Positions 2,197-52,686 of a stretch of 64,000 bases of DNA are shown in pieces. The stretch spans positions 186,001 to 250,000 of the forward strand of contig NZ_SNUJ01000001.1 in the NCBI RefSeq assembly GCF_012027395.1, in the 5' to 3' direction. Made by a program: the position numbers and the translations under genes. The stretch is from Thermococcus sp. LS1 (lineage in GTDB: Archaea > Methanobacteriota_B > Thermococci > Thermococcales > Thermococcaceae). The first letter of the stretch is position 1. Every line of letters begins with the position of its first letter. A model generated the notes under the pieces. The model saw nothing but the letters and a program-made list of their open reading frames with translations, ran no database searches and was not told the origin of the DNA.

Positions 2197-2908
2197 TTTC
2201 ACCACCCCTCATTTTCTTTTCCACCACTCCTATGAGCGTCAGACCTTCGAGTATCTCGCCGGCTCTCCCAACGCCGCTGAGCTTCTCCACGTTCCTCGCC
2301 TCGACCCACAGCAGGCCCCTTGAATGCCAGTCCTTTAGGGCCTCCTCAACCTTGTGAACGTCGCCGGGGTGAGAGTAAAGCCTGAGCATGAAGGTTTTCA
2401 TAACCTCGAGCTCGGCCTCAAGCTCTTCAATCTTCCGGAGCTTGTCCATTATACTCACGGGTACCTTTTTCTCCTTTTCGCCCTCGGCCAGAAGGGTGAG
2501 TCCCTCAACCTCAGTGGCAAGTTCCTGAATTGCCTTGCTCACAGCGTAATCGTAAACCCTGTGGAAGTGAACAAGTCTGTCAAGGGCAGTGTTCAGCCTC
2601 AGTCGGGCGTCATAGTCGGTTGCTTTCGCCAGTAGAGACAGAATCTCCTCAAGGCGGAACTTCATCTGGTGCTCGTTCCTGTGGAGCTCCTTGGCAAGTT
2701 CCTCAGCTCTTCCACCGATCTGGGCCATCTCCCGGTAGAGAACAGAGGCTATCTCAAGCTTCTCTCTGGAGAGCGTGTAAAGTCCCTTGATCCTTGCAAG
2801 AAGAGCTTCATAGTCCTTCTCCTCGTAGATGCCAGGAAACTGATGCTCAAATTGAGCGTGGAGCTCCTCGAGACGGGACAGCCTGGCCCTCAGTTCGTCA
2901 ACGTTCAT
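2162..2908 (-). CDS. Coiled-coil protein with C-terminal winged-helix-like segment, unknown function
   Basis: The 248-residue protein is almost wholly helical and charged. Residues about 1-170 carry long coiled-coil heptads, and the last about 60 residues ([22 protein letters not shown], then [16 protein letters not shown]) look like a small winged-helix domain. No catalytic motif is visible. It is the first gene of a two-gene transcript with FAU-1, overlapping it by 35 bases, so a role in RNA metabolism is a reasonable guess, but only from context. ATG 2908 follows a G-rich ribosome site. It is divergent from moaA. Confidence 0.7.
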
Positions 2909-2966
2909 GCGAAAACCCCCTGAGGGTTATCTAGATTCTCCCCCTACTTGTAGTTTTCGATGATCG

Positions 2967-2992
2967 TTGGGTAAACAGAATCACTTACCCAA
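2967..2992. promoter_or_regulatory. Operator-like inverted repeat upstream of moaA
   Basis: TTGGGTAA at 2967-2974 and TTACCCAA at 2985-2992 are perfect 8-base arms separated by 10 bases. They lie immediately upstream of the T-rich TATA-like box (about 2996-3005) that should drive moaA on the plus strand, and between the divergent moaA and coiled-coil genes. The position fits a regulator site; no known regulator was matched. Confidence 0.45.
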
Positions 2993-3034
2993 ACCTTTTT
3001 TTAAGCCCAAATGTTAATCATCTTGGTGCTTGAA

Positions 3035-3961
3035 ATGGTGCTCTACGACCGCTTTGGCAGGCCGGTGACGAACCTCAGGATTTCAATCACACGGGACTGC
3101 AACTACCGATGCTTCTTCTGCCATCGAGAGGGCCAGCACTTTAACGCAAGGTTAGAACTCACTCCAGCTGAAATCGAAAGGCTCGTTAGAGTAGCCTCGA
3201 ACCTAGGGATAAAGAAAGTCAAGCTAACCGGCGGCGAGCCGACTGTGAGGAGCGATATTATCGAGATAGTGAGAAGGATAAAACCCTACCTAAGAGACCT
3301 CTCGATGACGACCAACGGGAGCAGGCTGAAGGAGCTAGCGAAGCCTTTGGCAAAAGCAGGCCTTGACAGGGTGAACGTTTCGCTCCACAGCCTTAAGCCA
3401 GATGTTTACAAGAAGATAACCGGCGTTGACATGCTTGATGTCGTTCTTGAGGGCATTGAGGAAGCCGTCAGATACCTCAGCCCGGTCAAGCTCAACATGA
3501 CCGTAATGAAGGGCCTCAACGACGGCGAGATATGGGATATGATAGACTTTGCGGCCAAGACCGGCACGATACTCCAGCTGATAGAGCTCGAGGCGCCGAG
3601 AGAGATGACACAAACGAGCTTCTTCAGGAAGTATTTCTACCCGCTCAAGCCCGTTGAGCAGAAGCTCGAGGAGATGGCCGTGAAAACCCGGGAAAGGAGG
3701 ATGCACAGAAGGAAGAAGTATTTCATTCCGACGGACTACGGAATAGCCGAGGTTGAGGTTGTCAGGGCTATGCACAACACGATTTTCTGCGCCAACTGCA
3801 CCCGCCTTAGGGTTACTTCAGACGGCAAGTTCAAAACCTGCCTTCTAAGAAAGAATGATCTCATAGACTTCTCCACGGCGCTTAGGAACAGCGTCAGCGA
3901 TGCAGAACTTGTTGAGCTCTTCCAGAAGGCAGTTCTGATGAGAGAGCCCTACTGGAAATAG
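3035..3961 (+). CDS. moaA: GTP 3',8-cyclase MoaA (radical SAM, molybdo/tungsto-pterin biosynthesis)
   Basis: MoaA catalyses the first step of molybdopterin (here mostly tungstopterin) cofactor synthesis, rearranging GTP with a radical SAM cluster. In the 308-residue protein C22, C26 and C29 form the CxxxCxxC SAM-cluster motif (DCNYRCFFC), followed by the GGEPTVR motif. The C-terminal [21 protein letters not shown] supplies the second cluster cysteines. The GTG/ATG at 3011 is in frame, but ATG 3035 is preceded by GGTG and gives the family-like N-terminus [11 protein letters not shown] single gene with its own promoter region carrying an inverted repeat; it matters here because Thermococcales rely on tungsten oxidoreductases. 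Confidence 0.92.
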
Positions 3962-3999
3962 TTTAATACTACTTTGCCCTAAATTACAAGGGTGACTGG

Positions 4000-5899
<1,900 letters not shown>

Positions 5900-5903
5900 A
5901 GCC

Positions 5904-7409
5904 TCACTTCTTCAGGAAGTCAAAGAGCGTAGCCTGCTTGCCCTTCTTCTTGGGCTTGTCGATCTTCTCGGACTTCTTCTCCTTCTCGACGGCTTCCATC
6001 TCTTCCTCGGCCTTCTCGAGCTCCTCCTCGCTTATCTCCTCTTCTTCGAGCTCTTCTGCTTCATCGACTTTTTCTTCCGGTTCTTTCACCTCGGCCGCCT
6101 CAACCGCTACCTTAACGTGCTCCTTGAGCTCGTTCCGCTCCTCCTTGAGGCGCTTGTGAATGTTGAGGCTCTTGCCCCATATCGTCTTCGCTTTCTCCTT
6201 GTCGCCAACTATGAACTCGACCTCCTTCTCACTCAGGTCGAGGAAGACGACGAAGTGCGCCGCCATGTCGGGGTTGTGCTCGAATATCGCCTTAAGGATG
6301 TTGAGGGTTTCAAGAGCCTCGAGCTTCGCCATGTGCATCTCGCTCATTATCTTCTTGACCACTGAATCCCTGAGCGAGCGCTCCTCCTTGCTCTCGGTGA
6401 GGAGCTTTATCGTCTTCGGCGGGTAAATCCTCACGAAGCCCTTCTTCTTGACGCCAGCCACTGCAACGCCGGCGGTCATCATGTCCGTGGCGTACTTCCA
6501 GAGTCCGTAGTTACCCGTCCTCTGGGCCCTGCCGAGGTATATATCAGCTCTGCTAAGCGCTTCGTAGGCCCTCGCTATGTCCTCCGGCTTGTAATAGACG
6601 TAAGGCAGGTTCTCGTCTATCCACTGGAGGAGCTCGTGGGGAAACATGTCAACGCCGAGAACGGCCAGCTTTGCGCGTTTGGCGTTGTCGGTTGCGAACA
6701 GCTGAGCCAATGCCTGGAAGACGCTCTTCTCCACGTCACGGAATGCGAGAACCTCTCTGGCGTCCTCGATTCCACCCGAGACAACAGTCTGAAGGTCGTT
6801 TATTGCTGCCCTTAAGTCGCCGTTGGCGCGCTTGGCTATCTCCTGGAGGATTTCCTTCGGAACGGTTACACCCTCTGCCTTTAGGATCCTTATGAGGGCC
6901 TTCATTATGTCCCTCTGGCTCAGGCGCTTGTATTCAACTATCTGGGCCTTGTTCCTTATCTCCCTCGGAACCTCCCAGTAGTGGTTGGCTGACATGATTA
7001 TCGGGTTCCTGGCTTTGTCGATGAGCTTCGCTATCTCTCTCGCTCCGCTTGGTTCTATGTTGTCTGACTCGTCGAGGAATATCAGCTTTCTCCTCTTTCC
7101 AAGGATGTCCATCGTGTAGGCTGCCTGGACATAGCGCTCTATCTTCTCGTAGGTCCTCTCGTCGCTCGCGTTGAGCTCGATGACCTCGAAGCCGTACTCC
7201 CTGGCCAGGGCGTAGATGGTGGTGGTCTTGCCCGTCCCCGGAGGTCCAGCGAGGAGGAGAGCCTTCTTCTTCGGCGGATTACCGTGCAGCCATGCCTCTA
7301 TCCATGCCCTTACCTGCTCCAAAGCCTTGTCCTGATTCACTATCTCGCTCAGCCTTCTCGGGCGGTACTTCTCAACCCAGGGAACATCGAAGGAGGGCAT
7401 GGCCATCAC
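5904..7409 (-). CDS. rfcL: Replication factor C large subunit
   Basis: RFC loads the PCNA sliding clamp at primer-template junctions; the archaeal complex has one large and four small subunits. The 501-residue protein has an AAA+ module with Walker [10 protein letters not shown] near residue 55 and Walker B IFLDESDN, followed by the collar region. An acidic, Glu/Lys-rich tail covers about 415-490, and the C-terminal [11 protein letters not shown] is a PCNA-interacting (PIP) box. The start ATG overlaps the rfcS stop by 4 bases (7406-7409), so both subunits are coupled in translation. The gene is convergent with trm5, with a gap of only four bases. No intein is present. Confidence 0.96.
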
Positions 7410-8386
7410 TTACCCATCAGGGTGAACTGAGCGAGCAGAGCCTCGAGCTGAATCATCTCGTTCGCTCCCTCAACGAGCCTGAAGTTGTACTCGCCTATCT
7501 TGTCCGCCAAAGCGACCTTTCTGTCCTCTGGAATTGTGAGGTTGAACACTTCCTTGTGCATCTGGATGAGAACGTCCTCGCCGCTGAGCCCCTGCTTGAG
7601 GAGAATCTCCCTCAGCTTCTCTCTGGCCTTGAGGAAGTTGCCCTCGAGGGCAAGGTTCATCATCTCACGTACGTCTTCTGGACGAGCCCTGCTCGCAACG
7701 AGGAAGACGTTCTCATCGGTTATCTTTCTGTCGAGCGCAGCAGCTGCCTGAAGGACATTTATTGCCCTCCTGAGGTCGCCTTCAGCGACATAAAGGAGCG
7801 CCTGAAGGCCGTCCTCAGTGAGCTCAAGCCCCTCGTTCTCGGCTATGTACTTGATGCGCTTTGCTATGTCATTATCGTTGAGCGGTCTGAAGCGGAAGAT
7901 GGCACACCTCGACTGTATTGGCTCGATTATCTTGCTGCTGTAATTACAGCTGAGTATGAACCTCACGTTGGTCGAGAACATCTCCATTGTTCTCCTAAGC
8001 GCCTGCTGGGCGTCCTGGGTTAAAGCGTCCGCCTCGTCGAGGAAGATTATCTTAAAGCTTGCACCACCTATCGGCTTAGTTCTCGCGAACTCCTTCACCT
8101 TCTCGCGGATGACGTTTATACCGCGCTCATCGCTCGCGTTGAGCTCGAGGAAGTTGTGCCTCCAGTGCTCGCCGAAGAGCTCCCTCGCCAGGGCTAAAGC
8201 GGCCGTGGTCTTTCCGACACCAGGCGGCCCTGCGAAGAGGAGGTGGGGCATCGAACCGGTTTTAACGTAGTGTTTGAGGCGCTTGACTATATGCTCCTGA
8301 CCGACTATATCTTCCAGCCTCTGCGGCCTGTACTTCTCAACCCACGGCTTTTCAAGGATTTTAACCTCCTGGACTTCCTCTGGCAT
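7406..8386 (-). CDS. rfcS: Replication factor C small subunit
   Basis: The 326-residue AAA+ clamp-loader subunit shows Walker [11 protein letters not shown], Walker [10 protein letters not shown], and the SRC arginine-finger motif in [12 protein letters not shown]. Unlike several Thermococcales orthologs, it carries no intein. ATG 8386 is chosen because GGTGAT lies 5 bases upstream and MPEEVQEV fits the family; an open frame continues 35 codons further upstream without support. It is the first gene of the rfcS-rfcL operon. A TATA-like TTAATA about 45 bases upstream (near 8430) is a plausible promoter. Confidence 0.96.
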
Positions 8387-8493
8387 AGCTATCACCTTTC
8401 CTAAAAGGCTTATGCGCCTCCGGGGTATTAAGCCTTTTGCCCTCCCGAACCCCCACTTCCAAGCCCTGATGAACCCAAAGGAGAAGTGCAAAA

Positions 8494-8502
8494 CTTTTAT
8501 AC
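8494..8502 (+). promoter_or_regulatory. TATA box of kbl
   Basis: CTTTTATAC at 8494-8502 lies about 30 bases before the GGTGG ribosome site and 31 bases before ATG 8533, the usual archaeal spacing for a short leader. Confidence 0.5.
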
Positions 8503-8532
8503 CTCAGTGTCCAAAAACTTTCGGTGGTTCTC

Positions 8533-9720
8533 ATGGCGAAGCTCGACTGGATTAGGGAAGAGCTCCAGGAGCTTAAGGAAAAGGGCCTCTACGTAACTAT
8601 TAGAAAGCTCGAGAGCGCCCAGGGGCCCTGGGTTGTGGTTGACGGAAAGCGCGTTCTCAACATGTGTTCGAACAACTATCTCGGCCTCGCCGCACATCCC
8701 AAGATTAAGGAAGCGGCCATCAGGGCTATTCTCGACTACGGTGTCGGTGCCGGTGCCGTCAGAACCATAGCCGGTACCATGGAGCTCCACGTTGAACTGG
8801 AGGAGAAGCTGGCTAAGTTCAAGAAGAGAGAGGCTGCCATACTCTTCCAGAGCGGCTACAACGCCAACCTGGGAGCTATAAGTGCACTCCTCAAGAAGGG
8901 TGAGGATGGAGTATTCATCAGCGAGGAGCTCAACCACGCAAGCATAATCGACGGAATGCGCCTCAGCGGCGCTCCAAAAGTCATTTACAAGCACCTCGAT
9001 ATGGAGGACCTCAAGAAGAGGCTGGAGGAGAACAAGGACAAGAAGAAGAAAATCATCGTCAGCGACGGTGTCTTCTCGATGGACGGTGACCTCGCCCCGC
9101 TCCCTGAGATGGCCGAGCTGGCTGAGCAGTACGATGCTATACTCTACATCGACGACGCCCATGGTGAGGGTGTCCTCGGAGACAGCGGAAGAGGTATAGT
9201 GGACCACTTCAAGCTCCACGACAGGGTCGACTTCGAGATGGGTACGCTGAGCAAGGCCTTCGGTGTCATAGGTGGCTACGTTGCCGGTCCGGAGGAGGCC
9301 ATCGAGTACCTCCGCCAGAGGGCCAGACCGTTCCTCTTCTCGAGCGCTCCGAACCCCCCTGACGTTGCCGCCGCAATAGCGGCCGTTGAGATACTCCAGA
9401 AGAGCGACGAGCTGGTTAGGAAGCTCTGGGACAACACCCACTTCCTCCAGAATGGATTGAGAGACCTCGGCTACGACCTCGGCAACACCAAGCACCCAAT
9501 TACCCCGGTCATGCTCTATGACGAGAAGCTCGCCCAGGAGTTCTCAAGGAGGCTCTACGAGGAGTACAACATCTTCGCGCAGGCAATCGTCTATCCGACA
9601 GTTCCGCTCGGAACTGCCAGAATAAGGCTCGAGCCCTCAGCGGCCCACAGCAAGGAGGACCTCCAGTATGTCATCGACGCCTTCGAGGATCTCGGAAAGA
9701 AGACCGGGTTCCTGAAGTGA
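8533..9720 (+). CDS. kbl: 2-amino-3-ketobutyrate CoA ligase (glycine C-acetyltransferase)
   Basis: This PLP enzyme of the alpha-oxoamine synthase family splits 2-amino-3-ketobutyrate with CoA into glycine and acetyl-CoA, completing threonine degradation after threonine dehydrogenase. The 395-residue length matches the family. The PLP lysine is K241 in GTLSKAFG; the DDAHGEG motif (the PLP-contacting Asp and His) and the substrate-site ASHN-like segment LNHASIIDG are also visible. ATG 8533 is chosen over GTG 8524 because GGTGG precedes it and MAKLDWI fits the Pyrococcus proteins. Family members can act with other amino acids, so the precise substrate is inferred. Confidence 0.9.
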
Positions 9721-9846
9721 GCTCTTCTGTTCTTTTCCTTTTAAGTCGTCATTGAGAGCAGGATTAAATATCCATCTCAACATAATACGATTGCTAATTG
9801 AATTTTAGATTGGACTTAATAATAGACTTAGCTAACGAGAGTAAAT

Positions 9847-9854
9847 TTTATATA
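9847..9854 (+). promoter_or_regulatory. TATA box of the frameshifted exported-protein gene
   Basis: TTTATATA at 9847-9854 sits in an A+T-rich stretch 15-30 bases before the cluster of GTG codons (9869, 9875, 9884) that could start the following gene. Confidence 0.45.
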
Positions 9855-9868
9855 TTAAAAACTAAGTA

Positions 9869-11304
9869 GTGATTGTGAGCTACGTGGTAAAGAAAAAGCT
9901 CGCCGCGGCGCTAATACTTCTCATACTGTTGGGAAGCACGACGGTGGGAGCACTGAACTACCTAGCCAACAATGAAAACTCGATAACCCAAATCCTCGGC
10001 TACGATGTCTACAAAATCGAAGGCTCAGGCAACTACATCATCTACTACCCCCTGCCCAACGGAAGTGTTAAAGTACTGAAAACCGGAAAAGCAGAAGGGT
10101 TCTTTCCGACCTTCGTCAAAGTACCCAGACACAAGTGGATCAAAGAACTCTCAACGGGTGAAAAAGCCTTCTACGCCCCACCAACTCCCCTAATACTCTA
10201 CATTACAGAGGACGGAAAGCTGGGAGTGAAAAGCATAACCTCAAGCAGGATCAAGCTCGAAAGCGAAAAGACCGTGGATTTAAAGGGAACCCATCAGGTT
10301 CAGGCGAAAGGCTCATGTCCAAGGGGCTGGATAGACTTTGGAGGAAGGTACTGCCTCAACCCCCAATGGGACCTGTACTTTGAAAGCAGGGCAAAATCAA
10401 AAACCTTCAACGAATGGGTCTCAGTGATGGGACTAAAAATAGAAAACAAAGTCGCAGAAGAGATAGATTTCGACTGGGATCTCGTGCTCAGCAGGAGTAC
10501 CTACAGCTACTGGACGATTGGAATTGACGTTGGGCCCTTAACGGTGCTTAGCGTATCCAAGGGACACCGCTTCGAAGGCTGGGCACTGGATATAAGCTAT
10601 CAATCATTAGGGCCCTTAACAGTTAATTCAAACACTTGGAGAGGTATCTTAACATCAAGGTGGAGTACATTGTGGCCCACGCTAAGGTTCCCGCGTACGA
10701 CAAGCTCACGAGGAGGTATGTGGACATAGAGATAGCACAAACATACCCAATCAAAATCCACAGCACCGGAAAGTACACGATATGGGAGTCTCCTACAAGG
10801 GGCATCTACTTCACAGAGTCGCAAGGGAACAACCCTCCAAGGATCACCACAACCCCCAACATCTGGAGCATCTCAAAAGAAGCGGAGTGGAGAAGGAAGT
10901 GGATAAGTGCTGGGAGTTGGAAAAGTGCCGTCTATGTTAGACAATCTCAAAGTGAGGTCTTCTCATCGAGCTCCAGCCTGAGCATCCCAATAGGCTATGC
11001 CGCCGGAAAGTACCTTGCGGGCATAAATCCCACCCTTGGAAGACTGGCCAGCGCGCTCAGCCTGACGTTTGGGTTCCACAAGTACATGAACGCAGCTTCA
11101 ATGGCAGAATACAGCGTCGACGTCAAGCCCAAAAAGAGATGCTACGCAATGTACAGCGTTCTGGGGGTGAAGGTGAGGACTAGTGGGCCGAAGATCAGCG
11201 TGCCGCTGGTGTTTGGCGTTATAACCGACGGCAGGTCCCCGTCCCCACCCTGCGATCCAAGAACAGGCATGTGCGTGAACTCTGACAACGATATCATAGG
11301 CTAA
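9869..11304 (+). pseudogene. Exported protein, frameshifted; paralog of the 12433-13947 gene
   Basis: Two abutting open frames together encode about 478 residues. The first (9869-10729) has a signal peptide (KKKLAAALILLILLGS) and stays sensible to about residue 250. The second (frame -1, sensible from about 10630 to 11304) continues with LNIKVEYIVAHAKVPAYDK. Near the junction the sequence GGGCCCTTAAC occurs twice, 80 bases apart. The combined product resembles the gene at 12433-13947: both have a signal peptide, a Cys-Pro/Cys-Gly pair in mid-protein, a YIV/YVV strand, a GIYF/AMYYI segment and a Ser-rich region before KYMN/KYRS. So one base was lost around 10624-10660, unless it is a sequencing error or programmed shift. 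All candidate starts are GTG. Function unknown. Confidence 0.65.
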
Positions 11305-41175: not shown

Positions 41176-42525
41176 TCAGGCCTTTTCTATGGCCTCCTTA
41201 ACCAACCGCTCCGCCTTCTCCATCAATGCCCTGGCCTTTTCTTCCGTATGCGCCTCGAGGGTTATCCTCATTATCGGCTCCGTTCCGCTCGGTCTAAAGA
41301 GAATCCACCAGTCACCGTTCTCAATCCTGACGCCGTCGATGTCTATGAGCCGCTCGTAGTCGAAGGACTTCAGAGCCTCGTGGGCAATTATCTCCATGGC
41401 CTTTGCCTTCTTTCCGTTGGGACACGGGATCTTGGCCCTGAGCGTCACGTAGCGCGGGACTTCCTTGGCGAGCTCGCTTATCGGGCCGAGCCTGTCGATC
41501 ATCTCCAGAACGAGTGCCCCCGCGAAGATTCCGTCCGGCGTCAGGTTCCACTGGGGAATGATCCAGGTTCCGCTCGGCTCGCCGCCGAAGATTCCGCCGT
41601 GTTTGGCAAGCTCATCGGCTACCGCAACGTCACCGACGCGCGTCCTCAGAACCTCACCACCAAGGGGCTTGATGTAGTCGTCCAGGGCAAAGCCGGCATC
41701 GACGGTTGTAACTACCTTACCCTTCCCGAATTTCCGGAGGGTGTATCCTGAAATGAGGCTCAGCATAACCTCATACTCCACGAAGTTGCCCTGGTCATCA
41801 ACAACGCCTATTCTATCCGCGTCACCGTCGTGGGCGATTCCAACGTCGGCTTTCATAGCCTTAACAGTTTTAGCGAGCATGGCTAAGCTCTTCGCGTTCG
41901 GTTCAAGCTCCCTCACGAAGAAGCCGCTCGGGTGGGAGTTAAGGCTGATAACTTTGTTCCCAAGCTCGCGCTGGAGGTAGGGGCTGAGGATTGAGCCGGC
42001 GCCGTTGCCAGAATCGAGGACGACAGTGTAGCTTCCCTCAAGCTCAACCATCTCAAGGGCCGCTTTGATGTATTCTCCTTTCGGGTCGGCCCTCCTCAAG
42101 GTTCCAATCTCGTTCCAGGAGACTTTCCTGAAACTCCCGGAATCAATTATCGCCTCAAGTTCCGCCTCCATCTCGGGTGTGTAGGCCATGCCGTTGGCCT
42201 GCCACACCTTTATGCCGTTGTACTCCGGCGGATTGTGTGATGCAGTGATTGTAACTCCAGCATCGGCACCGTAGAGCTTTATTGCGAAGCCCGTCAGCGG
42301 GGTGGGGGCAAGGCCTATATCGATAACATCAACACCCGCGCTCAGAAGACCGCTTATCACTGCCTTTTTGAGCATCTCGCCGCTCGTCCTCGTGTCCTTG
42401 CCCACTACAACTGTTCCACCGCCGAGATAAGTCCCTAGAGCCCTTCCGACATTCAGAGCAAGCTCCGGAGTGAGCCTCTCGTTGACGACCTCCCTGATAC
42501 CGCTGGTTCCAAAGTACTTCCCCAT
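41176..42525 (-). CDS. glmM: Phosphoglucosamine mutase / phosphohexomutase
   Basis: The 449-residue protein is an alpha-D-phosphohexomutase. Its motifs are the phosphoserine loop [11 protein letters not shown] (Ser near residue 95-100), the metal loop DGDADR, the sugar-binding GGEPSG and the phosphate-binding RPSGTEP. Family members interconvert hexosamine-, mannose- or glucose-1- and 6-phosphate, providing UDP-GlcNAc or GDP-mannose for glycans; the preferred sugar is not fixed by sequence. ATG 42525 follows GGTGGTG; GTG 42534 is upstream in frame. Confidence 0.86.
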
Positions 42526-42584: not shown

Positions 42585-43034
42585 TCAGATGCTGAAGAAG
42601 CCGACGCCCTTCACCTTGACGCCGGCCACTTTGAAGGCCTCCTTGATCTTCTTCATGTTCATCGACCCGGGGCCGGCCTTGAACTTGAGGCTCTTGCGCC
42701 CCTTTATCTCCAGCTCGTCCATCTTCCCACTGTCATAGTCCCCAGTTTTGAGCTTGACCTCCTTGATGTCGGCCATCAGGACGACGAAGTTCTCCCCGGA
42801 CTCTTCCAGTATCTCGCTCGGCTCCATCTCGTAGTACCTCCCGCTGTAGCCGGAGGTGACGCCGGCCAGGTAGCCGGGGATGCCGCTGGCCTTCTCCTTC
42901 CCCTTTGCGATTGTTTCCTTTGTGATGTGGGCCACTATGACCCTCTCGTTCGTTATCACGAGGTTGACCGCAGCCGAGCTCATGAATCCCTTCTTGTAGG
43001 AAACGTTGGGCACGACGTAAAGTACCTTCTCCAT
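42585..43034 (-). CDS. PH-like domain protein, unknown function
   Basis: The 149-residue protein is beta-rich, with VNLVITNERVIVAHI near residue 25, ILEESGENFVVLMADIKEVKLKTG in the middle and ELEIKGRKSLKFKAG plus a C-terminal helix (MKKIKEAFKVAGV). This is the layout of a pleckstrin-homology-like domain that would bind lipid or protein at the membrane. No membrane segment is present. The start is ATG 43034 with GGAGATGAT upstream. A TATA box (TATATAAG) at 43109-43102 lies about 67 bases upstream. It may be made in one transcript with glmM, which follows 59 bases later. Confidence 0.6.
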   Translation of the reverse strand: MEKVLYVVPNVSYKKGFMSSAAVNLVITNERVIVAHITKETIAKGKEKASGIPGYLAGVTSGYSGRYYEMEPSEILEESGENFVVLMADIKEVKLKTGDYDSGKMDELEIKGRKSLKFKAGPGSMNMKKIKEAFKVAGVKVKGVGFFSI

Positions 43035-43294: not shown

Positions 43295-44005
43295 TCAGCT
43301 GCTGAAGGCCGCTATCTCCTTCCCCTCAGGGTTCAGCACGTGGATAACCACGTTTCCACCGAGTTTCTGGGACAGGTCGGACGCCATCTGTCTGTAAGTG
43401 TTTTCGGCGTCGCCTATCTCCTCTCTGCTCTCGAAGGAGCTCACGGTCTTCACGTTGTAGGGGTTGCTCCCCTCGAGGATTATGTCCCACGGCCCCTCGC
43501 CGACGAGCGAGACGGCGTAGTCAAGGACGGCCTTCGCCTTATCCTCACCAATGCCGGCGTACCAGACGTATATGGTGCCGGAGTTCACGTAGGAGTACCT
43601 GCTCTCCGCGGAGAAGAGCTCGCTTCCCTCGTCCGTCACGAGCTTCAGGGTCGATTTAGCACCCCCGAATACGTCCTGCGACATCTTCGAGGCCATCATC
43701 TCCACGTAGAACCTCGTGGCATCGTCTATCTGGTCCGGGCTGGTGTAAGGAGTGGTCACCTCGACGGTGTAAGCGTCCCCGCTCTTGCTCAGGTAGACGT
43801 TCGTTTCCCCGGTTATCTGGAAGGTCTCTCCAACGAAGTCGATGAGCGCCTTGGCCTGCGAGAGCGAAACATCGCCGGAGTAGTGCACAGTTACCTCGTT
43901 TATCGTAAGGGTCTTCTCTGTTTTCACGTTCGTGTCCGGGTTTTCACAGCCAGCGGCGATGACCAGAAGGGCCACCGCGAGCAGGGCAAAGACAAACCTT
44001 CCCAT
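43295..44005 (-). CDS. Lipoprotein with two internal repeats, unknown function
   Basis: The 236-residue protein has a lipoprotein signal (GRFVFALLAVALLVIAAGC) with lipobox VIAAGC. Two halves of about 100 residues each repeat the same pattern: a short strand, AKALIDFV or AKAVLDYA, VYLSKSGDAYTVEVTT or IILEGSNPYNVKTV, DDATRFYVEMMASKMSQ or GDAENTYRQMASDLSQ, then a GG. This is a tandem domain duplication. ATG 44005 is preferred over 44011 because the GGAGGA ribosome site needs room. Last gene of the six-gene exported operon. Confidence 0.72.
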   Translation of the reverse strand: MGRFVFALLAVALLVIAAGCENPDTNVKTEKTLTINEVTVHYSGDVSLSQAKALIDFVGETFQITGETNVYLSKSGDAYTVEVTTPYTSPDQIDDATRFYVEMMASKMSQDVFGGAKSTLKLVTDEGSELFSAESRYSYVNSGTIYVWYAGIGEDKAKAVLDYAVSLVGEGPWDIILEGSNPYNVKTVSSFESREEIGDAENTYRQMASDLSQKLGGNVVIHVLNPEGKEIAAFSS

Positions 44006-44044
44006 TCCCATTCCTCCAGCTTTTGCGTGAAAAAAAGAAAGGGC

Positions 44045-44428
44045 TCACTTCTTTTCCAGCACGTAAATTCCAACGCTGACTTTATAGGAATCCACGTTCA
44101 GGGGGCTCTTGTAGTCCACCCTGACCTGGAAGGGCTTGTTCGAGCCGTAAATCATGCTGTTCGTTTCCGACTCGGTCAGGACGTTGCCGTCCTGGTCCAG
44201 GATGGTTATCTTCTCAACGGTTCCCTCGCTGCTCGCGTTGATGTAGTACTTCCCAGGATCGAGGACGTGCGAGAGGTAAAAGACATCGCCGCTCACAGTT
44301 TCCGTTTTGACCTCGACCGGAACCTTGTCGTAGGTGCTGAGGTAGTAGTACTGCATGCCGAAGACCGCGACTATGCCTATGACTATGAGCAGGAAGAAGC
44401 CAACGATCAGCTTTTTGATCAGTCCCAT
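44045..44428 (-). CDS. Membrane-anchored small extracellular protein, unknown function
   Basis: A 127-residue protein: one N-terminal membrane helix (KLIVGFFLLIVIGIVAVFG), then an outside domain of short beta strands (VPVEVKTETVSGDVFYLSHVL, DPGKYYINASSEGTVEKITILD). It is like a single Ig/cupredoxin-size unit. GGAGGTGATG precedes ATG 44428. It starts five bases after the CGP-CTERM gene ends, in the same operon. No family recognised. Confidence 0.68.
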   Translation of the reverse strand: MGLIKKLIVGFFLLIVIGIVAVFGMQYYYLSTYDKVPVEVKTETVSGDVFYLSHVLDPGKYYINASSEGTVEKITILDQDGNVLTESETNSMIYGSNKPFQVRVDYKSPLNVDSYKVSVGIYVLEKK

Positions 44429-44432
44429 TTCA

Positions 44433-46127
44433 TCACCTCCTCCGGGTTATTGCAACCAGCAGTGCGAGCAGGGCCATTATCCCGGGCCCGCAGGTCACGT
44501 CTACCGAAACTCCCCCGTCCGTGCCTGTTCCCTCGCTGCTGGAGTCGCTGGATGGGCTTGTGAAGCCTGAACCTTCGGATGTGGCCGTTGGCGAGTGGGA
44601 CGATGTAGCGGGGCTGGTCGAGGTCTCTATCCCTCCCTCAGATGAACCCGTCTGGTTGCAGGCTTCTTTAAGGTGGAAGTACTCGCTCGGGTGATCGTGA
44701 ACCCATACCTCCACCGGGGCAATCTTATACCACTCCCATGTCGGGAGGTCGTCGAACTCAAAGGCCCCCTCAAAGCTGGCCTCGGCATAGAGGGGCACCT
44801 TCACGAACTCCACGTCGCCCTTTCCCAGATCCACGAAGTTCGGAACCCACGCGGTCAGCTCCCCGCCCTTCTCGACGTGGTGGACGTCACAGCCCGCAAA
44901 GCCCATGTCGGAGTCCAGTTTCAGGAGCCGGTCAGGGGGGAGGAAGATAGTGAAGCCGTTTCCGGCGCGGGATATATACCAGCTGTGAGGCTGAACGTCG
45001 TAGTAAACCTCGAGAACGTCTCCGGAAGGCGACATCTTAACGAGCGGGTCGAAGAAAACGTAGTTCCCGTCATCGGCAAGAGCAAAGCCGGCGGGAGATT
45101 CTCCCTGGTAGAGGGTTGTGTTCCAGAAGCCGCTCCAAAGGATGTTGCCCTGCTTATCGAGCTTCACCCAGATCGAAGCACCGCCGTCGTATTTTCCCGG
45201 CAGGCCGTTGGTGTAGAGCCATCCGTCGGGAACGCTGTAAAGCATCGGCCTTCCTCCGGAGAGGCTGTTGAAACCGCCCATCTTCCAGAGCTCACCGCCG
45301 TCTATAGCCTGCCTGTACTCCCTGACCCATTCAAGTTCTCCAGTTTCAGGGTCTATGCCCAAGATGCCGAAGTCCGGACCGCCGAGGGAGGAAGAGAATG
45401 CTATGGCAACTTCACTCCCGTCGAAGCCCACTGCGTTCACGTACTCGTGGATGCTCTCCCTGCCGTAGATGTGGATCCACTCCAGGTTTCCGGAGGAGTC
45501 GAACTTTATCGCCCCTATGTCGAGGGCCGAGGCTATGCCTTCCCAATCATATGGATCGTCCGGGTTTTTATGATGCATGTGCGCGTAGATGGGAGCCACA
45601 ACAATGGCCCCATCGCCTGTAGGTTGAACCCTGATCCCCGCGTAGCCACCTGCGGAGTTCTTGAAGGCCCTCACCCAGACGGGATTTCCTGAGAAGTCGA
45701 ACTTGACCAGCGTGAAAAGCGGGTCTCCCTTAATCCAGTCATCCGGTGCTGAGACGTTGAGGACGCCGTTCGTCCTCAGGACAGCGTAGATACCGTCCTC
45801 CCCAACGGCGATGTCGGATACGATCTGATACTGACCATAGGGGAGGTTGAGGGGGAGTTTCGGGCTGAGGCTGAAGTTCTTAGCCCAGAGGACCTCTCCC
45901 ATCGGCGAGAGGTGTATCAGAACAGCCAGTCCAGCCCCGTGGCTTCCGAGGAGGTAGTAGTCCCCTGCGTTCCCCGGGACGAATGCCACGGGGTTGTAGG
46001 GACTATCGAACATCGTTTTATCCCGCTGGACGCCGTAGATGACCTCCCATGCGCTGGAGGGGCTTGCAAGGGGCAGGAAAAGTCCCAGAACAACGAAAAA
46101 TGCAATAAAGATGCCGGATTTTTTCAT
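44433..46127 (-). CDS. Exported beta-propeller-like protein with CGP-CTERM anchor signal
   Basis: The 564-residue protein has a signal peptide (KKSGIFIAFFVVLGLFLPLAS). Repeated strands of the form VKFDFSGNPVWVRAF, IKFDSSGNLEWIHIYG and GIDPETGELEWVREYR suggest a PQQ-like beta-propeller over about residues 40-430. Then come a Ser/Thr-rich spacer (about 500-545) and a C-terminal CGPGIMALLALLVAITRRR. The last is the CGP-CTERM sorting signal known in Thermococcales, where the Cys is probably processed and lipid-modified. ATG 46127 has GGGAGTGTGG upstream. Middle of the exported operon; substrate or partner unknown. Confidence 0.8.
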   Translation of the reverse strand: MKKSGIFIAFFVVLGLFLPLASPSSAWEVIYGVQRDKTMFDSPYNPVAFVPGNAGDYYLLGSHGAGLAVLIHLSPMGEVLWAKNFSLSPKLPLNLPYGQYQIVSDIAVGEDGIYAVLRTNGVLNVSAPDDWIKGDPLFTLVKFDFSGNPVWVRAFKNSAGGYAGIRVQPTGDGAIVVAPIYAHMHHKNPDDPYDWEGIASALDIGAIKFDSSGNLEWIHIYGRESIHEYVNAVGFDGSEVAIAFSSSLGGPDFGILGIDPETGELEWVREYRQAIDGGELWKMGGFNSLSGGRPMLYSVPDGWLYTNGLPGKYDGGASIWVKLDKQGNILWSGFWNTTLYQGESPAGFALADDGNYVFFDPLVKMSPSGDVLEVYYDVQPHSWYISRAGNGFTIFLPPDRLLKLDSDMGFAGCDVHHVEKGGELTAWVPNFVDLGKGDVEFVKVPLYAEASFEGAFEFDDLPTWEWYKIAPVEVWVHDHPSEYFHLKEACNQTGSSEGGIETSTSPATSSHSPTATSEGSGFTSPSSDSSSEGTGTDGGVSVDVTCGPGIMALLALLVAITRRR

Positions 46128-46140
46128 TTTCCACACTCCC

Positions 46141-46887
46141 TTATGGTTTTCCGATTTCAACAACGCTTATCGAGTTCGCGAACTCCTCGGGTGAGAGTTC
46201 CCCGGAGAGGGCCTTCAGCAGGTCATCGCTGGAAACAGAAACGCTGACGTTCCTTTCCCCGAAGTAGATTATCTCCACCCTACTTACCCAGGGGGCATCC
46301 TCCAGAATGGCGAGGCTCATCTTGGCGTAGTCCCTCCAGAAGGAGTCCCCGTCAGCCAGGTACTCAAGAGAGACGCTTGCAGTGTCGTTTGTGACTTTAA
46401 CGTCCTGAACAATCACGTCGAAGAGGCCCAGGTCGTTCTCAATCCTGAACTCCGGACGGCGAATGTCCTCAAAGAGGGGGTTATCAAAGTCCCCGTTTTT
46501 AACCGTTAGAGCCAACACAGGCTCATCCCCGAAGTAGGCCTCGACTCGAATATCTCCGGAGCCGTTGGCCTCGTAGGTCCTCTTCGCGAGGGCGTAGGCT
46601 GTATCCAGGAGGTTCCCGTCAATGGCGGGTGCCCTAAAGCGAACGACCGTCCCGTTGTCAGAGTTGAGTACGGTGACGTTCTCAATGGCCATCTCAGTGC
46701 TTGAAGTCCCGGTTCCACCGGAGGACGGGGTTTCTGTGGCGCTGGAGGCCTCTCCAAGGTTATTCGTCACGTTCTTGGCGGTGTCTATGACCTGTTCGGG
46801 GTTTAGATTGTCGGGAACCCGGAAGCTCCCGCTGAAGTAGATGTAGCCGCCTATAAGGAGGAGAAGGAGGAGCAGCTTCCCCTTCAT
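46141..46887 (-). CDS. Exported or membrane-anchored protein, unknown function
   Basis: The 248-residue protein begins with a short hydrophobic segment (GKLLLLLLLIGGYIYFSGSF), then a linker rich in Ser/Thr (about 45-65). An extracellular domain follows with ENVTVLNSDNGTVVRFRAPAI and FGDEPVLALTVKNGDF; the C-terminal part has YAKMSLAILEDAPWVSRVEI. The start overlaps the stop of the previous gene (ATGA) and follows GGAGGGG. No family recognised; the operon context implies a role at the cell surface. Confidence 0.68.
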   Translation of the reverse strand: MKGKLLLLLLLIGGYIYFSGSFRVPDNLNPEQVIDTAKNVTNNLGEASSATETPSSGGTGTSSTEMAIENVTVLNSDNGTVVRFRAPAIDGNLLDTAYALAKRTYEANGSGDIRVEAYFGDEPVLALTVKNGDFDNPLFEDIRRPEFRIENDLGLFDVIVQDVKVTNDTASVSLEYLADGDSFWRDYAKMSLAILEDAPWVSRVEIIYFGERNVSVSVSSDDLLKALSGELSPEEFANSISVVEIGKP

Positions 46888-48281
46888 ATTATCCCCTCCT
46901 CGTAGAGCTTGTTTATGTAGAAGCGTATCCTCGCCTCCTGGTCCTTGAAGTCGCCCTTGGAGTTCCTGTTCATCATGTTGACCCTGTGCATTCCCATCGT
47001 GGTGTCCCTCATTTCGTCAATCGTGTTCCTGATGATGTCGCTGTACTTCATACCGGCCTTCTTGTAGCGAATGGCAACCTTCGCCGTCGTTTCAAACTCC
47101 CACCTGTAGTCCTGGGCCAGGGTCTTCTTTATTGCCACGCCCATCGAGTTGAGAACCACCTCTATCGGCTTCGTCTCGATGCTCGAAGGTATGGCGTTTT
47201 TGTAGGGCGACATCGCCTTCTCGCGGTTCTCTATATCCGACATGTCGTTGTAGAGCGACGCGCTCCTGCCGTCTACGTGCAGGTCCGTGGCTGTCTTCTT
47301 CACGGCCTCGCTGTCGGAGAAGACGTTGATGTCCTTGTCGGCCTTGAAGTAGTCCTTGAAGAGGCCCAGCGGCTTGGGGAGGTAGTTGGCAACCTGGTCG
47401 ATGAAGGCATCGAGGGCTTTGTTGCCGTAGTACTTGGCCTTCCAGCCCAAGGCCGAGCTACCACCCGAGTAATCCGGGTTTGAATTGATTACCCTGACGA
47501 CCTCTCCCCTCGGCGTTTTGATGACGACGAAACCGCCCCATTTTTCACCGAGTCCCTTGAGTCCCTCGTTGGTCTCCCTCATCCTCTTAACCGCGTTCGG
47601 GCTCAAATCCGTTCCAGAGAAGCCTTCTGGGCCTCCGGAGACATCAACGGAGGTGTTCACCGGGACCCTCACCGTGCTGTTGGGTATCCTACTGAGATAT
47701 AGGTTCATGAGAACCGGAAGTGACCCCTCAAGGTCGCAGGCGGTCGTTCCCTTGATGTAGGATGCCTCCGCGGTTACCCAGTAATGGTCGCCAACGAGGG
47801 CCGCGTATCTGTCCCAAACCCATATTGTTTCCTGACCGTCGAAGTACCTCTTCGTCTGAACGAACTTGAGCTCGGCATAACCGGCCCCCTCACTGAACTC
47901 GTAGTGAGAGATTATTACACCCACCTTCTCATTGCTCCACTCATCTATGATGTCCTCCTCCCTGTCGGTGGAGTTCATGCCCTGCTTGATAAACCACCTG
48001 AACTGTTCAACAGCCTCGTTGTCGGTGTAGTAGGTTACCGCTATCCTAATGTAGTTGCCGTAGTCCGGGTTGTGATTGGGACAGAGGAAGTCCTGGTAAA
48101 AGATGGCATAGTTGGAACCCTCAGGGCCCCTTCCTCCGTTGCTGAAGGAGAGGATTAAACCGAGGGACTTCGCTTCTTCCTTCGTTATCGAGGGCAACCT
48201 GTCCGGGAACTGGGGCGCGGAAACCGGCAGGGCCAGTAGGAGCATAACGCCTATAAAAAGGACTAGTTTTTTGGACATCAT
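46884..48281 (-). CDS. Exported protein, unknown function
   Basis: The 465-residue protein has a signal peptide (KKLVLFIGVMLLLALPVSAP). The N-terminal about 190 residues contain a beta-rich domain with two candidate disulfide Cys (FYQDFLCPNHNPDYG and GTTACDLEGSLPV). The C-terminal half is helical and charged (NKALDAFIDQVANYLPKPLGLFKDYFKADKDIN, split here for length; then YKKAGMKYSDIIRNTIDEM). The last about 100 residues lack membrane segments. ATG 48281 follows GGAGG; its stop overlaps the next gene. Second gene of the operon. No family recognised. Confidence 0.68.
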   Translation of the reverse strand: MMSKKLVLFIGVMLLLALPVSAPQFPDRLPSITKEEAKSLGLILSFSNGGRGPEGSNYAIFYQDFLCPNHNPDYGNYIRIAVTYYTDNEAVEQFRWFIKQGMNSTDREEDIIDEWSNEKVGVIISHYEFSEGAGYAELKFVQTKRYFDGQETIWVWDRYAALVGDHYWVTAEASYIKGTTACDLEGSLPVLMNLYLSRIPNSTVRVPVNTSVDVSGGPEGFSGTDLSPNAVKRMRETNEGLKGLGEKWGGFVVIKTPRGEVVRVINSNPDYSGGSSALGWKAKYYGNKALDAFIDQVANYLPKPLGLFKDYFKADKDINVFSDSEAVKKTATDLHVDGRSASLYNDMSDIENREKAMSPYKNAIPSSIETKPIEVVLNSMGVAIKKTLAQDYRWEFETTAKVAIRYKKAGMKYSDIIRNTIDEMRDTTMGMHRVNMMNRNSKGDFKDQEARIRFYINKLYEEGII

Positions 48282-48433
48282 ACCAACCTCCGAAGGAGCC
48301 CCAGAAACCACCTCAGGAGCAGGATGAAAACTATAACTGCCCCAACAAGCAGGAGAAGCCCGAGTAGCGGGCCAAGAACGTTCAAGCCCGTGAGTGGTTC
48401 AGAGGGCATATACTCACTTCCAAGCAAACCCAT
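48278..48433 (-). CDS. Small membrane protein, first gene of the exported operon
   Basis: A product of about 51 residues with one long hydrophobic helix (LTGLNVLGPLLGLLLLVGAV, then IVFILLLRWFLG) and a basic end LLRRLV. Starts at ATG 48433 or, with the better ribosome site GGAAGTGAG, at ATG 48409. A TATA-like TTAAAAAG (near 48466-48474) upstream would be the promoter of the whole six-gene operon. Its stop overlaps the next gene by four bases. Confidence 0.55.
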   Translation of the reverse strand: MGLLGSEYMPSEPLTGLNVLGPLLGLLLLVGAVIVFILLLRWFLGLLRRLV

Positions 48434-48531: not shown

Positions 48532-49317
48532 TCAGACGCGCCGTTCCCGAAGTTCTTTCGCTAGCCTAACGAGTCTCTCGGCCCTTTCGGGATCTACCTC
48601 GTTCTTGACTTTTCCGCATCTCTTTATCCACGTGCCCACTATGAAGCCATCTGCATAGTTCCAAAGCATGGGCAGGTTGTCATAGCTCGTGCCCGAGCCG
48701 ACTATGACTGGAACTGGAGAGATTTTTTTCGCGAGCCTCAGCCGCTCCAGATCAACGGGACTTCCAGTTGTCCTTCCACTTATTACTACAGCATCGGCTA
48801 AGCCCCTCTCGACGGTGTCCCTTATGGAGTCCTCGAAGTCCCCGAAGTGGACGGCGTGCTTGACGTGAACATCCGCGAAGACCTTGATTTTGCTTGGAAG
48901 AAGTTTTCTCAGCCTTGCAAGCTCGTGGGCTATGCCCTCTATGATTCCCTGGTCTGTGTAGGCTACTCCGCTCAGGACGTTCACTCTGATGAAGTCTGCC
49001 TTTACGGCGTAGGCAATCGAATAGGCCGCAACTCCGTCGTTCCTGAGGACGTTTATCCCGAGGGGAATTGAAACCTCCTCGCGTATGGCCCTGGCAACGA
49101 CCGCCAGAGACGCGACTGTAGTTTTGTCAACGTACTTCGGGAAGGGGACGTCCCCGAAGTTTTCCACCATGATTGCGTCGAAGCCAGCTTTCTCAATCGT
49201 TCTCGCGTCCGCTATGGCTCGCTCAATGATGGAATCAAAGTCACCATCGTAGAGGTATGAACCCGGCAGAGGCTTGAGGTGCACCATCCCGATAAGGAGC
49301 TTTTTCTCAAAGTCCAT
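48532..49317 (-). CDS. BtpA/SgcQ family TIM-barrel protein
   Basis: The 261-residue protein has the BtpA signatures: GMVHLKPLPGSY at the start, GFDAIMVENFGDVPFPKYVDKTT, LGINVLRNDG, FIRVNVLSG, then KVFADVHVKHAVHFGDF, AVVISGRTTGSPVD and VPVIVGSGTSYDNLPMLWNYADGFIVGTWIK. The family is a (beta/alpha)8 barrel; in cyanobacteria BtpA affects photosystem I stability, but archaeal members have no assigned reaction. It is a single gene; the 150-base gap upstream to the transglutaminase operon contains the operon's TATA box. Confidence 0.86.
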   Translation of the reverse strand: MDFEKKLLIGMVHLKPLPGSYLYDGDFDSIIERAIADARTIEKAGFDAIMVENFGDVPFPKYVDKTTVASLAVVARAIREEVSIPLGINVLRNDGVAAYSIAYAVKADFIRVNVLSGVAYTDQGIIEGIAHELARLRKLLPSKIKVFADVHVKHAVHFGDFEDSIRDTVERGLADAVVISGRTTGSPVDLERLRLAKKISPVPVIVGSGTSYDNLPMLWNYADGFIVGTWIKRCGKVKNEVDPERAERLVRLAKELRERRV

Positions 49318-49467: not shown

Positions 49468-52400
49468 ATGGTGAGGCGAAAATACGTCGCATTTTTCACC
49501 CTCATCCTGCTCTCCACCCTGTTAGCCTCATCCGTACTGGGCCCAGCTCTGATAAGGGCCCCACCTCAGACGAAAAGCCTGGAACGGTTTCTTCTTCCCC
49601 GGGAGGAACCGGGAAACTACACCAACGAGACCGGTCCTCCGATAGAGGTTCCCGGGCCAACTCAGTTCATGCTACTCGTTACCGGCGCCGCCCACACTCA
49701 CTACCTCAGGCTCAACGTCTACACGGACTACGTGGACGGAAGGTGGGTTACGAGAAACGCCACGGCCGTTCCGGGCAATGTCATCGCACCACCAGAGATA
49801 AATGTCCCCCACCACGCAGAGAGGGACGAAATTACGGTCATTTCGTTCTTCCCGCTCCACGGCAACCTTTACACCTCACTCTACACCACGAGGGTGAACG
49901 CACCCGGTATCGAGGCCGTTCCGGAATACAACCTATTCAGAACGAACCTGAACATCAGCACGTACTCCTTCTCGGCCGTCTCCTATACATTCGACTGGCC
50001 ATATCTCCTAAACCTCACTGCTGAAAACCAGACTCTCTACCTAAGCGCACCCGAGGATGTTGAACTAAAGAACTTTGCGCTGAGTATAACCTCCGGAGAG
50101 AGCTTGGACTACTTGAAGGCACTGAAGATAGTGAGATACCTGGCGAACAACTACCGGTACTTTGAAAACCCCTCACCTCCGAATGATACGGACAGGCTGA
50201 AATGGTTCCTCTTCGAGTCAAAGGCAGGCAATTCCTACGACTTTGCATCAGCTTTAGTCATCCTCGCAAGGCTCAACGGCCTTCCAGCAAGACTCGTGGA
50301 GGGCGTTTACATCGACGCAGTTCCAGAGACGCAGGTAGTGACCGAAAAAAACCTGCACTTCTGGGCAGAGATTTACTTTGAAAAAGCTGGCTGGCTTATT
50401 TTTGATCCATTCCACCCAGATCCAAATCCCTTCATCCCCTTCGAGCTCGAGGTCTCGCCTACAAATATGACTCTCTCCCCAAGAGGATACGGCGAAATAA
50501 CGGCGAAGTTCATGCGCGTTGCCAGCGGAACGAACGCGACGGTAACCGTAATGAATCCCACGGGAAAAACGATAGCAACCTTCGAGAAGCCGGGGATATA
50601 CAACGTGAGAGTGGGGCCCTTTGAGGAGCCCGGATATTATCCAATCATGGTAAACGCCTCAACGAACGCCGGAGTTCCGCAGTCAATAGTGCACTTCATT
50701 CCAGTGATAGTCCCAGGGAACTTTACGGTAGTTCCCGAGGTGCCCGCTGCGTCTCTCGCCAAGGGAGATATTTGGTGGCTGGATCTCGACATAACCGGCG
50801 ATGCCGAGAACCCAAAGGTAATAACAAGCTCGGAGCTCGTTTACTCCTGGACTACGGTCTGGGGCAAAGCGGGAGTCTCCATAGGCCTGCAGGCTCCCCA
50901 CGATTCTCGATTGGGGTGGCACGTTGAGAAAATTGTCGTCGTAGACAAAGGGTACCGCTTCCCAGTTTACCTCCCCATCTTTGTGATAGAGAGAACTGAT
51001 ATACGCGTGATAGCTCCGAATACCGTTACGGCCGGCGATTCCTTCAAGATCGGAGGGGCTGTGAGCGGAACCATCACGGGAGAATTCCCAGAGTGGGGCA
51101 TCATATATGCGTTCCTAAGCGACGGTCAGAGGGAAATTTTAATCGGCTACACCAACATCTCCAGAGAAATCTTCACGCTTCGGGCCAAGATACCGGAGTA
51201 CATGTCCCCCGGAACAAAGGGTATATCAATCTACTACATCCCACCCATTGGACACCCCTATTTCCCCTCGAGGACTGAAACATTTGTGACGGTCAGGGGA
51301 CTCGCGAAGTTCTCGGTGCCCGAGCTGGTTCTGGCGAGGCCCGGAAATATCACCATTGCAGGAACCCTTATTGGAGGGGACAAAAGGCCAATAGCCAACG
51401 TAAGCATAGAGTACTATCTCGATGGGAATCTCATTGGAACCGTCAACTCCTCCGAGAGGGGCGAGTTCTCAATAATTCTTCCAGTTCCTTCGGTAGAGAG
51501 CCATACCCTCACCCTGAGATATCCTGGGAGCTCTGACTACTCCCCCGCCACCGCGGAGGTAGATGTAGCCGCCGTCGAGCTAAAAATTCCAGAAACCACA
51601 GAGGCAGAGCTGGGCAGGCCTGTCAAGATAAGCGGAAGGCTCGTGGGGGTTCAGAACGCCACGCTAGAGGCTTACATCTATCCAGGAAAGACCTACACCA
51701 TCCAGGTGGTCAATGGAAGCTTTACCTTAACCCTGGAGTCCTTCCCGACAGTGGGAGATAGATCGATAGAGTTCCGCCACGGAGCCTATACCCTGGGCAG
51801 AAGCACCGTGGTGGTGGTTTCTCCAGTCGAGATAAAGCTGCTGACGTCAAGGGCTGAAGGCAAGGAAGAGGCTCAGATACGGTTCCAAGTTGTGGACTCA
51901 ACGAACGAGCCAATTAAGGGTGTGTCTCTAGATGTCGTGATAGACGGCCTCGTGAAGCGCGTGATGACGAACTCGTCTGGAGTGGCAACGGTTGAGGTTC
52001 CCGTGCTTGAGGACGAGGTGAACGCAACCGTTAAGGTCCTCTTCGAGGGCTCGACATACTACCTTCCAACCCAAAAGACCTTCCACGTCGTTATAGCAAG
52101 GAAGAGGAAGATTCCCTGGCTCTACATCGGAATCGCGCTTCTCATAGGTGCAGTCATCATCAGGTACAGGCTTGTGAGAAAAAAGCCTCCAGAGGCCAAG
52201 CGTGAGAAAATCCTGAAGATAATCTTCAACAACGGAATACCCCTCTTTAGGGAGGGCGAGACTATGGAGATAAGCATTGAATGCGAGGACGAACCTGAGC
52301 TCTACGTTGACGGCGAGCTCGTTGGAAAGGGCAGGGAATTCAGACTCAAGCTCCCGCTCGGTAAGCACATCCTCGAGGTTCGCTGCGGTGAGCTCGTCGA

Positions 52401-52686
52401 AAAAGCAACTGCGAGGATAGTAAAAAGCTACAACGAAGCCGTGGTTGACTACTACGAAAAATGCTTCCTGCCCTGGGCCAAAGAGCTCGGGCTGGACGTC
52501 GACGAGATGACCCCGAGGGAGATATCCACAATGCTGACGGATATGATGTATCCCTGGGAGCCGCTCGACCTCCTTACGGAGATATTCGAGAGGGCCAAGT
52601 ACAGCCACCGTGAGGTGTCAAGGGAGGAGTTCATACGCTTCTACAGGGCCCTCCTCACCCTCGTTGGAGGTGGTTGCGTTGTTTAG
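49468..52686 (+). CDS. Membrane transglutaminase-like protein (TgpA-like) with Cys-to-Ser active site
   Basis: The 1072-residue protein has an N-terminal membrane segment (AFFTLILLSTLLASSVLGPALI), a transglutaminase-like domain at about 225-320 and several Ig-like repeats at about 350-870 (e.g. RPIANVSIEYYLDGNLIGTVNSS). A second membrane segment follows (WLYIGIALLIGAVIIRY), then a cytoplasmic C-terminus ending in a DUF4129-like segment. In the core, the position of the catalytic Cys (usual pattern G-x-C-x-x-F/Y-A) is S256 in GNSYDFASA; H297 (LHFWAE) and D313 (IFDP) are kept. So the Cys nucleophile is absent. First gene of an operon with MoxR and DUF58, as in TgpA loci of bacteria. Confidence 0.78.
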   Translation: MVRRKYVAFFTLILLSTLLASSVLGPALIRAPPQTKSLERFLLPREEPGNYTNETGPPIEVPGPTQFMLLVTGAAHTHYLRLNVYTDYVDGRWVTRNATAVPGNVIAPPEINVPHHAERDEITVISFFPLHGNLYTSLYTTRVNAPGIEAVPEYNLFRTNLNISTYSFSAVSYTFDWPYLLNLTAENQTLYLSAPEDVELKNFALSITSGESLDYLKALKIVRYLANNYRYFENPSPPNDTDRLKWFLFESKAGNSYDFASALVILARLNGLPARLVEGVYIDAVPETQVVTEKNLHFWAEIYFEKAGWLIFDPFHPDPNPFIPFELEVSPTNMTLSPRGYGEITAKFMRVASGTNATVTVMNPTGKTIATFEKPGIYNVRVGPFEEPGYYPIMVNASTNAGVPQSIVHFIPVIVPGNFTVVPEVPAASLAKGDIWWLDLDITGDAENPKVITSSELVYSWTTVWGKAGVSIGLQAPHDSRLGWHVEKIVVVDKGYRFPVYLPIFVIERTDIRVIAPNTVTAGDSFKIGGAVSGTITGEFPEWGIIYAFLSDGQREILIGYTNISREIFTLRAKIPEYMSPGTKGISIYYIPPIGHPYFPSRTETFVTVRGLAKFSVPELVLARPGNITIAGTLIGGDKRPIANVSIEYYLDGNLIGTVNSSERGEFSIILPVPSVESHTLTLRYPGSSDYSPATAEVDVAAVELKIPETTEAELGRPVKISGRLVGVQNATLEAYIYPGKTYTIQVVNGSFTLTLESFPTVGDRSIEFRHGAYTLGRSTVVVVSPVEIKLLTSRAEGKEEAQIRFQVVDSTNEPIKGVSLDVVIDGLVKRVMTNSSGVATVEVPVLEDEVNATVKVLFEGSTYYLPTQKTFHVVIARKRKIPWLYIGIALLIGAVIIRYRLVRKKPPEAKREKILKIIFNNGIPLFREGETMEISIECEDEPELYVDGELVGKGREFRLKLPLGKHILEVRCGELVEKATARIVKSYNEAVVDYYEKCFLPWAKELGLDVDEMTPREISTMLTDMMYPWEPLDLLTEIFERAKYSHREVSREEFIRFYRALLTLVGGGCVV

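Follow-up and report, generated by a model that had tools for sequence, protein, structure and literature searches.

The locus described here lies in a 64,000-nucleotide stretch of the Thermococcus sp. LS1 genome (contig NZ_SNUJ01000001.1, positions 186,001 to 250,000 of the forward strand; hereafter the window, with position 1 at its first letter). Six minus-strand genes, which we call G1, G2, G3, the propeller gene, G5 and G6, lie there between a BtpA-family gene and a phosphoglucosamine-mutase-like (PGM) gene. Comparison with relatives (genomes with three-digit labels, G001 and so on; loci with labels such as L130) shows a fixed-site, modular and recombining envelope-protein locus, in which a common N-terminal part is joined to exchangeable C-terminal domains, each with a type-matched partner. 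The G2-G3 pair is its defining part, and the propeller that headed the initial annotation is optional. The features are as follows, beginning with the pair:

46884-48281, minus strand: G2, 465 residues, two-part, predicted to be exported; ATGA overlaps with G1 and G3
G2 domains: PsbP-like N-terminal domain at residues ~34-197, a linker, then the type-B C-terminal helical domain at residues 226-465
46884-47606, minus strand: type-B C-terminal domain of G2 (residues 226-465, 240 residues), the exchangeable part
46141-46887, minus strand: G3, 248 residues, membrane-anchored, translationally coupled to G2, with a type-B N-terminal part and, by alignment, lacking the extra C-terminal domain of longer G3 proteins
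48278-48433, minus strand: G1, 51 residues, one hydrophobic helix (sequence and hydropathy)
44433-46127, minus strand: propeller, 564 residues, beta-propeller-like, with signal peptide and CGP-CTERM anchor (TIGR04288, blade motifs); optional
44045-44428, minus strand: G5, 127 residues, N-terminal membrane helix and exposed domain; the most widespread part
43295-44005, minus strand: G6, a 236-residue lipoprotein with a duplicated domain
42585-43034, minus strand: seventh gene, 149 residues, no signal peptide
48532-49317, minus strand: BtpA-family gene, the constant left border of the site
41176-42525, minus strand: PGM, the constant right border, named from its sequence and not from a family scan
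44050-45450, no strand: segment near-identical to relative G087, pointing to recent recombination (DNA identity and synonymous divergence, dS)

Gene calls agree with the initial annotation on the six genes and their close packing (G1-G2 and G2-G3, -4 bases each; G3-propeller, +13; propeller-G5, +4; G5-G6, +39), and every one of the six products has a signal peptide, lipobox or membrane helix by hydropathy, again as first described. The account of the propeller likewise holds: it scores 22.0 bits against TIGR04288, for which the curated cut-off is 21, with the hydrophobic helix and basic end in place; a hydrophobic segment stands at its C-terminus too, and at least four putative blade motifs of the type hxxD/SxxGxxxW can be recognized. 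The lipobox of G6 ends at Cys20, and the two halves of the protein align at 29% identity (E 4e-8), which bears out the duplication. In line with the view that the set falls outside known families, a Pfam scan of the six products brought none to the family cut-off.

We searched 94 family genomes for G2, G3 and G6, extracted the surrounding DNA, called its genes and compared their order; a wider set of 115 genomes of the phylum was used for the G2 types and G5. G2 carries one of two C-terminal domains, the 240-residue type B found in the window or a type A of ~430 residues, and no profile similarity links the two. The type-B domain is conserved over 31 loci while the N-terminal parts differ. The N-terminal parts of both types fall into one similarity network, in which full-length swaps link type A and type B, for example between G066 (type A) and G021 (type B) at E 6.5e-117, and between G073 (type A) and G080 (type B) at E 1.3e-60. 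G3 is similarly composite, with a type-specific N-terminal part, rich in DxDGDG motifs in type A, and an optional C-terminal domain. The type of the G3 N-terminus equals that of the G2 C-terminus in all 41 intact pairs (29 B-B and 12 A-A), and five more type-A loci are likewise matched. In G021 the N-terminus of G2 and the C-terminus of G3 (the latter 82% identical) are of type-A origin around a type-B middle; these borders flank the pair, and the exchanged unit therefore runs from the end of G2 into the beginning of G3. Comparisons of G3-B with G3-A, and of G3 with G6, gave no convincing relationship.

G2, G3 and G6 have relatives in about a third of the 94 family genomes. In the genus of the window these loci sit between BtpA and PGM, except for a few whose contigs are short; the G2-G3 pair of three other genera has different neighbours (L130, L131, L132 and L134). 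G2 and G3 always co-occur. At ~6321 of L199 (G107), a match to the G3 C-terminal domain stands with G5 and without any G2. Two genomes, G058 and G066, carry tandem A and B cassettes, and the site can also hold one set. The PGM beside the tandem locus of G058 (L103) was called as two pieces of 179 and 291 residues, perhaps through a frameshift or a sequencing error. The type-B G2 C-terminal domain occurs in 33 of the 115 phylum genomes, decayed copies included, and type A in 18, and both types, as well as G5, are confined to the window's own family within that set. Whole genomes were searched within this phylum only; the one scan of a genome collection, made with G5, returned only Thermococcus and Thermococcaceae records.

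The initial annotation had envisaged a coherent six-gene surface complex and set out beforehand the test that the six genes should stay together and co-occur. They do not: the propeller is present in 14 genomes, G6 in 31 of 94 and G5 in 55 of 115, and all six genes in only ~7. BtpA runs directly into PGM in G001, G003, G019, G020, G045 and G069; G5 stands alone at the site in G018, G024, G056, G059 and G082; G074 has G5, G6 and the 149-residue gene there; and decayed copies remain in G013, G015 and G060. Genes are also exchanged singly between species, and the idea of a six-gene complex is not supported. The seventh gene, which had been overlooked, belongs to the same mobile set; other loci have it between G3 and G5. 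In the window it follows a 260-base gap and appears to have its own promoter, to judge from a TATA-like tatataag near 43105; scans for sigma-70-type promoters and terminators were uninformative, the host being an archaeon. By tblastn, other loci have relatives of G1 downstream of G3 as well. Distant propeller-like proteins (for example of 876 residues) adjoin divergent G5-like genes or BtpA, in L116 (G071, 2836-5851), L198 (G106, 6357-10200) and L204 (G016), which suggests that propeller and G5 form an older mobile pair in themselves. Divergently from the BtpA side, at 49468-52686 on the plus strand, a 1072-residue exported transglutaminase-core protein with Ig-like (immunoglobulin-like) domains is encoded; its gene seems to head a MoxR-like operon and adjoins BtpA in many, not all, of the compared loci.

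Patchy gene content and decayed copies, together with the lack of a catalytic or toxin signature, are what one would expect of an ordinary, non-essential surface complex that serves in adhesion, in binding nutrients or in maintaining the envelope, and that gains, loses and trades its parts at a permissive site with no special selection for variety. We consider this explanation unlikely. Neutral exchange leaves the strict type matching unexplained, and also the fact that swaps in independent lineages share the same borders. Nor does it account for the near-identical DNA in one stretch of a locus that otherwise diverges more than its flanks.

That stretch emerged from comparison with the relative G087: over about 1.4 kb (~45450-44050) the DNA identity is about 99-100%, against 73-83% in the flanks, and G6 is unalignable. 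Values of dS for the same pair are 1.62 for BtpA and 1.33 for PGM, against 0.12 for the propeller and 0.00 for G5. Such DNA mosaics show recent recombination between species; it is frequent at this locus, and genes have been swapped one by one. Within the window locus the nearest relatives differ from gene to gene. Across genomes, BtpA and PGM give concordant distances (rank correlation 0.76), and the distances from G2, type-B G3 and the propeller disagree with BtpA (-0.08 to 0.06; flank-decoupled values are -0.08 for the G2 C-terminus, -0.06 for G3 and 0.03 for the propeller). The G2 C-terminus co-varies with the G3 N-terminus (0.60 in type B, 0.72 in type A), while G5, G6 and the G3 C-terminal domain agree partially with BtpA (0.44-0.69). 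By BtpA and PGM, G060 is among the closest relatives; against it, distal BtpA is 95-97% and distal PGM 90-94% identical, but both module edges reach only 72-75%, the pattern that would be left by alleles entering through homologous recombination in the genes on either side. The G+C content of the locus is slightly raised (0.54-0.58 versus 0.50-0.56), too slight a rise to serve as a sign of a recent island, and we rejected it as such.

AlphaFold2, run on 31 sequences for the G2 model, predicts the N-terminal domain with good confidence (predicted local distance difference test scores mostly 80-93). Its best Foldseek matches are PsbP, MTC28, LpqN and DcrB (E 1e-3 to 1e-1, probabilities up to 0.99), with which the modelled domain shares an antiparallel sheet and flanking helices in the same order; there is no significant sequence similarity, and the likeness is one of fold and not a family assignment. 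This fold is common among secreted and envelope proteins. The type-B C-terminal domain is predicted to be mostly helical, with mixed confidence. In type A, the model places an Ig-like domain first and a helical region next, while the last 170 residues are poorly modelled; matches of the Ig-like domain include the CARDB domain of P. furiosus PF1109. In profile searches of PDB sequences with G2 and G3 of both types, and with the propeller and G6, all matches were short or weak, and we take them to be chance. A match of the G2-B profile to MJ0577 was set aside; it extends over ~50 residues, beginning in the linker and ending where the C-terminal domain begins. In one type-A G2 (L157:4851-6152) the motif PGDxIDNDGDGLVDCDDPDIATCDxC resembles a Cys/Asp-rich stretch of teneurins; a teneurin relationship was rejected, the match being limited to the calcium-binding-like motif DNDGDGLVDCDDPD.

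The reading we favour, at slightly less than an even chance, is that the window holds one allele of a hypervariable envelope-protein locus of polymorphic-toxin-like design, encoding a surface effector and its cognate immunity protein or partner for conflict or kin recognition. We infer the effector and cognate-partner function for G2 and G3. G2 would be exported and then displayed or released at the cell surface, where its PsbP-like domain may bind a variable target or carrier and its C-terminal domain may act as an effector on the envelopes of cells nearby. In the producer and its kin, membrane-anchored G3, with its N-terminal part facing outwards, would bind the effector of its own type and neutralize (or escort) it. 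G1, the propeller, G5 and G6 would be accessory proteins of the surface that change display or specificity. Two strains that differ in allele would therefore recognize or harm one another. Such encounters would favour rare alleles and so drive shuffling.

Several observations weigh against an effector and immunity pair. In the six genes, Pfam, NCBIfam and PADLOC matched nothing besides the CGP-CTERM signal, with no toxin or immunity family among them, and the type-B C-terminal domain, part of which is poorly modelled, has no structural match among the best Foldseek hits. Just two C-terminal types were found, the locus encodes no delivery machinery and G5 is not type-specific. The type matching is explained in part by linkage, because the two halves of the exchanged unit are neighbours in the tightly linked G2-G3 pair. 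Classical polymorphic toxins are most variable at their C-terminus; here the tip is not the fastest-varying part, mean identity among close alleles being 83% in the G2 C-terminal domain and 66% in the N-terminal part, and 62% in G6.

This distribution of divergence, greatest in the exposed half of G2 and in the lipoprotein and least in a putative docking domain, would also fit antigenic or receptor diversification. A surface complex exposed to viruses, or to vesicle or plasmid uptake, would have its exposed N-terminal domains shuffled to escape binding, and G3 would be a structural subunit that matches the docking domain of G2 and not an immunity protein. The fold matches of the N-terminal domain, to PsbP and the secreted or envelope proteins MTC28, LpqN and DcrB, agree with such a role. 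However, simple antigen variation needs neither two unrelated C-terminal domains with partners of their own nor tandem A and B cassettes, and our searches found no link to viruses: viral contigs held no relative of either G2 type, and viral fold matches were dismissed as noise. We regard this explanation as somewhat unlikely.

The effector and partner interpretation draws on the likeness to polymorphic toxin systems (Zhang et al. 2012). In common with these, the locus has an exported multi-domain protein whose shared N-terminal part precedes exchangeable, unrelated C-terminal domains, an adjacent type-specific partner (41 of 41), tandem cassettes and a patchy distribution. It differs in that no toxin, immunity or processing-protease domain is recognizable, the C-terminal domains are conserved and of two types only, and delivery machinery was not found. 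With CGP-CTERM proteins (TIGR04288) it shares the sorting signal of the propeller, above cut-off, and the anchor alone, the rest of the propeller belonging to no family.

The nearest described system is VARTIG, a module found only in Thermococcales, with a layout like that of polymorphic toxin systems and of unknown function, which occupies islands next to an RNase III homologue (Makarova et al. 2021, PMC8416519). Both have membrane or secreted products, recombine between species and have partner genes that tend to follow particular subtypes. The shared archaeal order, secreted proteins, hypervariability and toxin-like layout, and the CARDB-like Ig domain at the start of the type-A C-terminal half, might even suggest that the locus is a VARTIG member, but we find this highly improbable. 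The end motif D[ND]NxxxG[GD] was absent from the last 40 residues of every called gene in 50 loci, so that the DNNxxxGG end of VARTIG is lacking here. Several Ig-like domains in a large protein, a VARTIG feature, were not seen either: the window G2 model has none and the examined type-A half has one. The proteins differ, as does the site, which is BtpA-PGM and not an island beside the RNase III homologue (PMC8416519), and the variable part is N-terminal here, whereas in VARTIG it is the C-terminal Ig domain (PMC8416519). Here, moreover, a C-terminal domain of two defined types has an obligatory matched partner, and the exchange could be mapped as a DNA mosaic. In its layout and its evolution the locus behaves as polymorphic toxin systems do; we place it in neither that class nor VARTIG, because features of each were tested and found lacking. 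The initial annotation's view of an undescribed surface system survives insofar as the locus recurs across Thermococcus and no description appeared in the literature searched, although the 2019 archaeal polymorphic-toxin survey (Makarova et al.) may mention it; its unit is not the six genes.

It is a real possibility, if still the lesser one, that the locus represents a new archaeal conflict or kin-recognition system with unprecedented effector and partner folds, whose exchange cassette takes in the last part of G2 and the first part of G3 and whose alleles pass between species when the BtpA and PGM genes on either side recombine homologously. Few systems of conflict or recognition between archaea have been put to the test so far. 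If the favoured reading is right, the locus would be a second hypervariable surface module in Thermococcus besides VARTIG, with a one-to-one matched pair at one known site, and allele recognition between archaea would be directly testable in a genus that has genetic tools. Whatever its function, the locus offers a clean natural example of domains being swapped between species of archaea.

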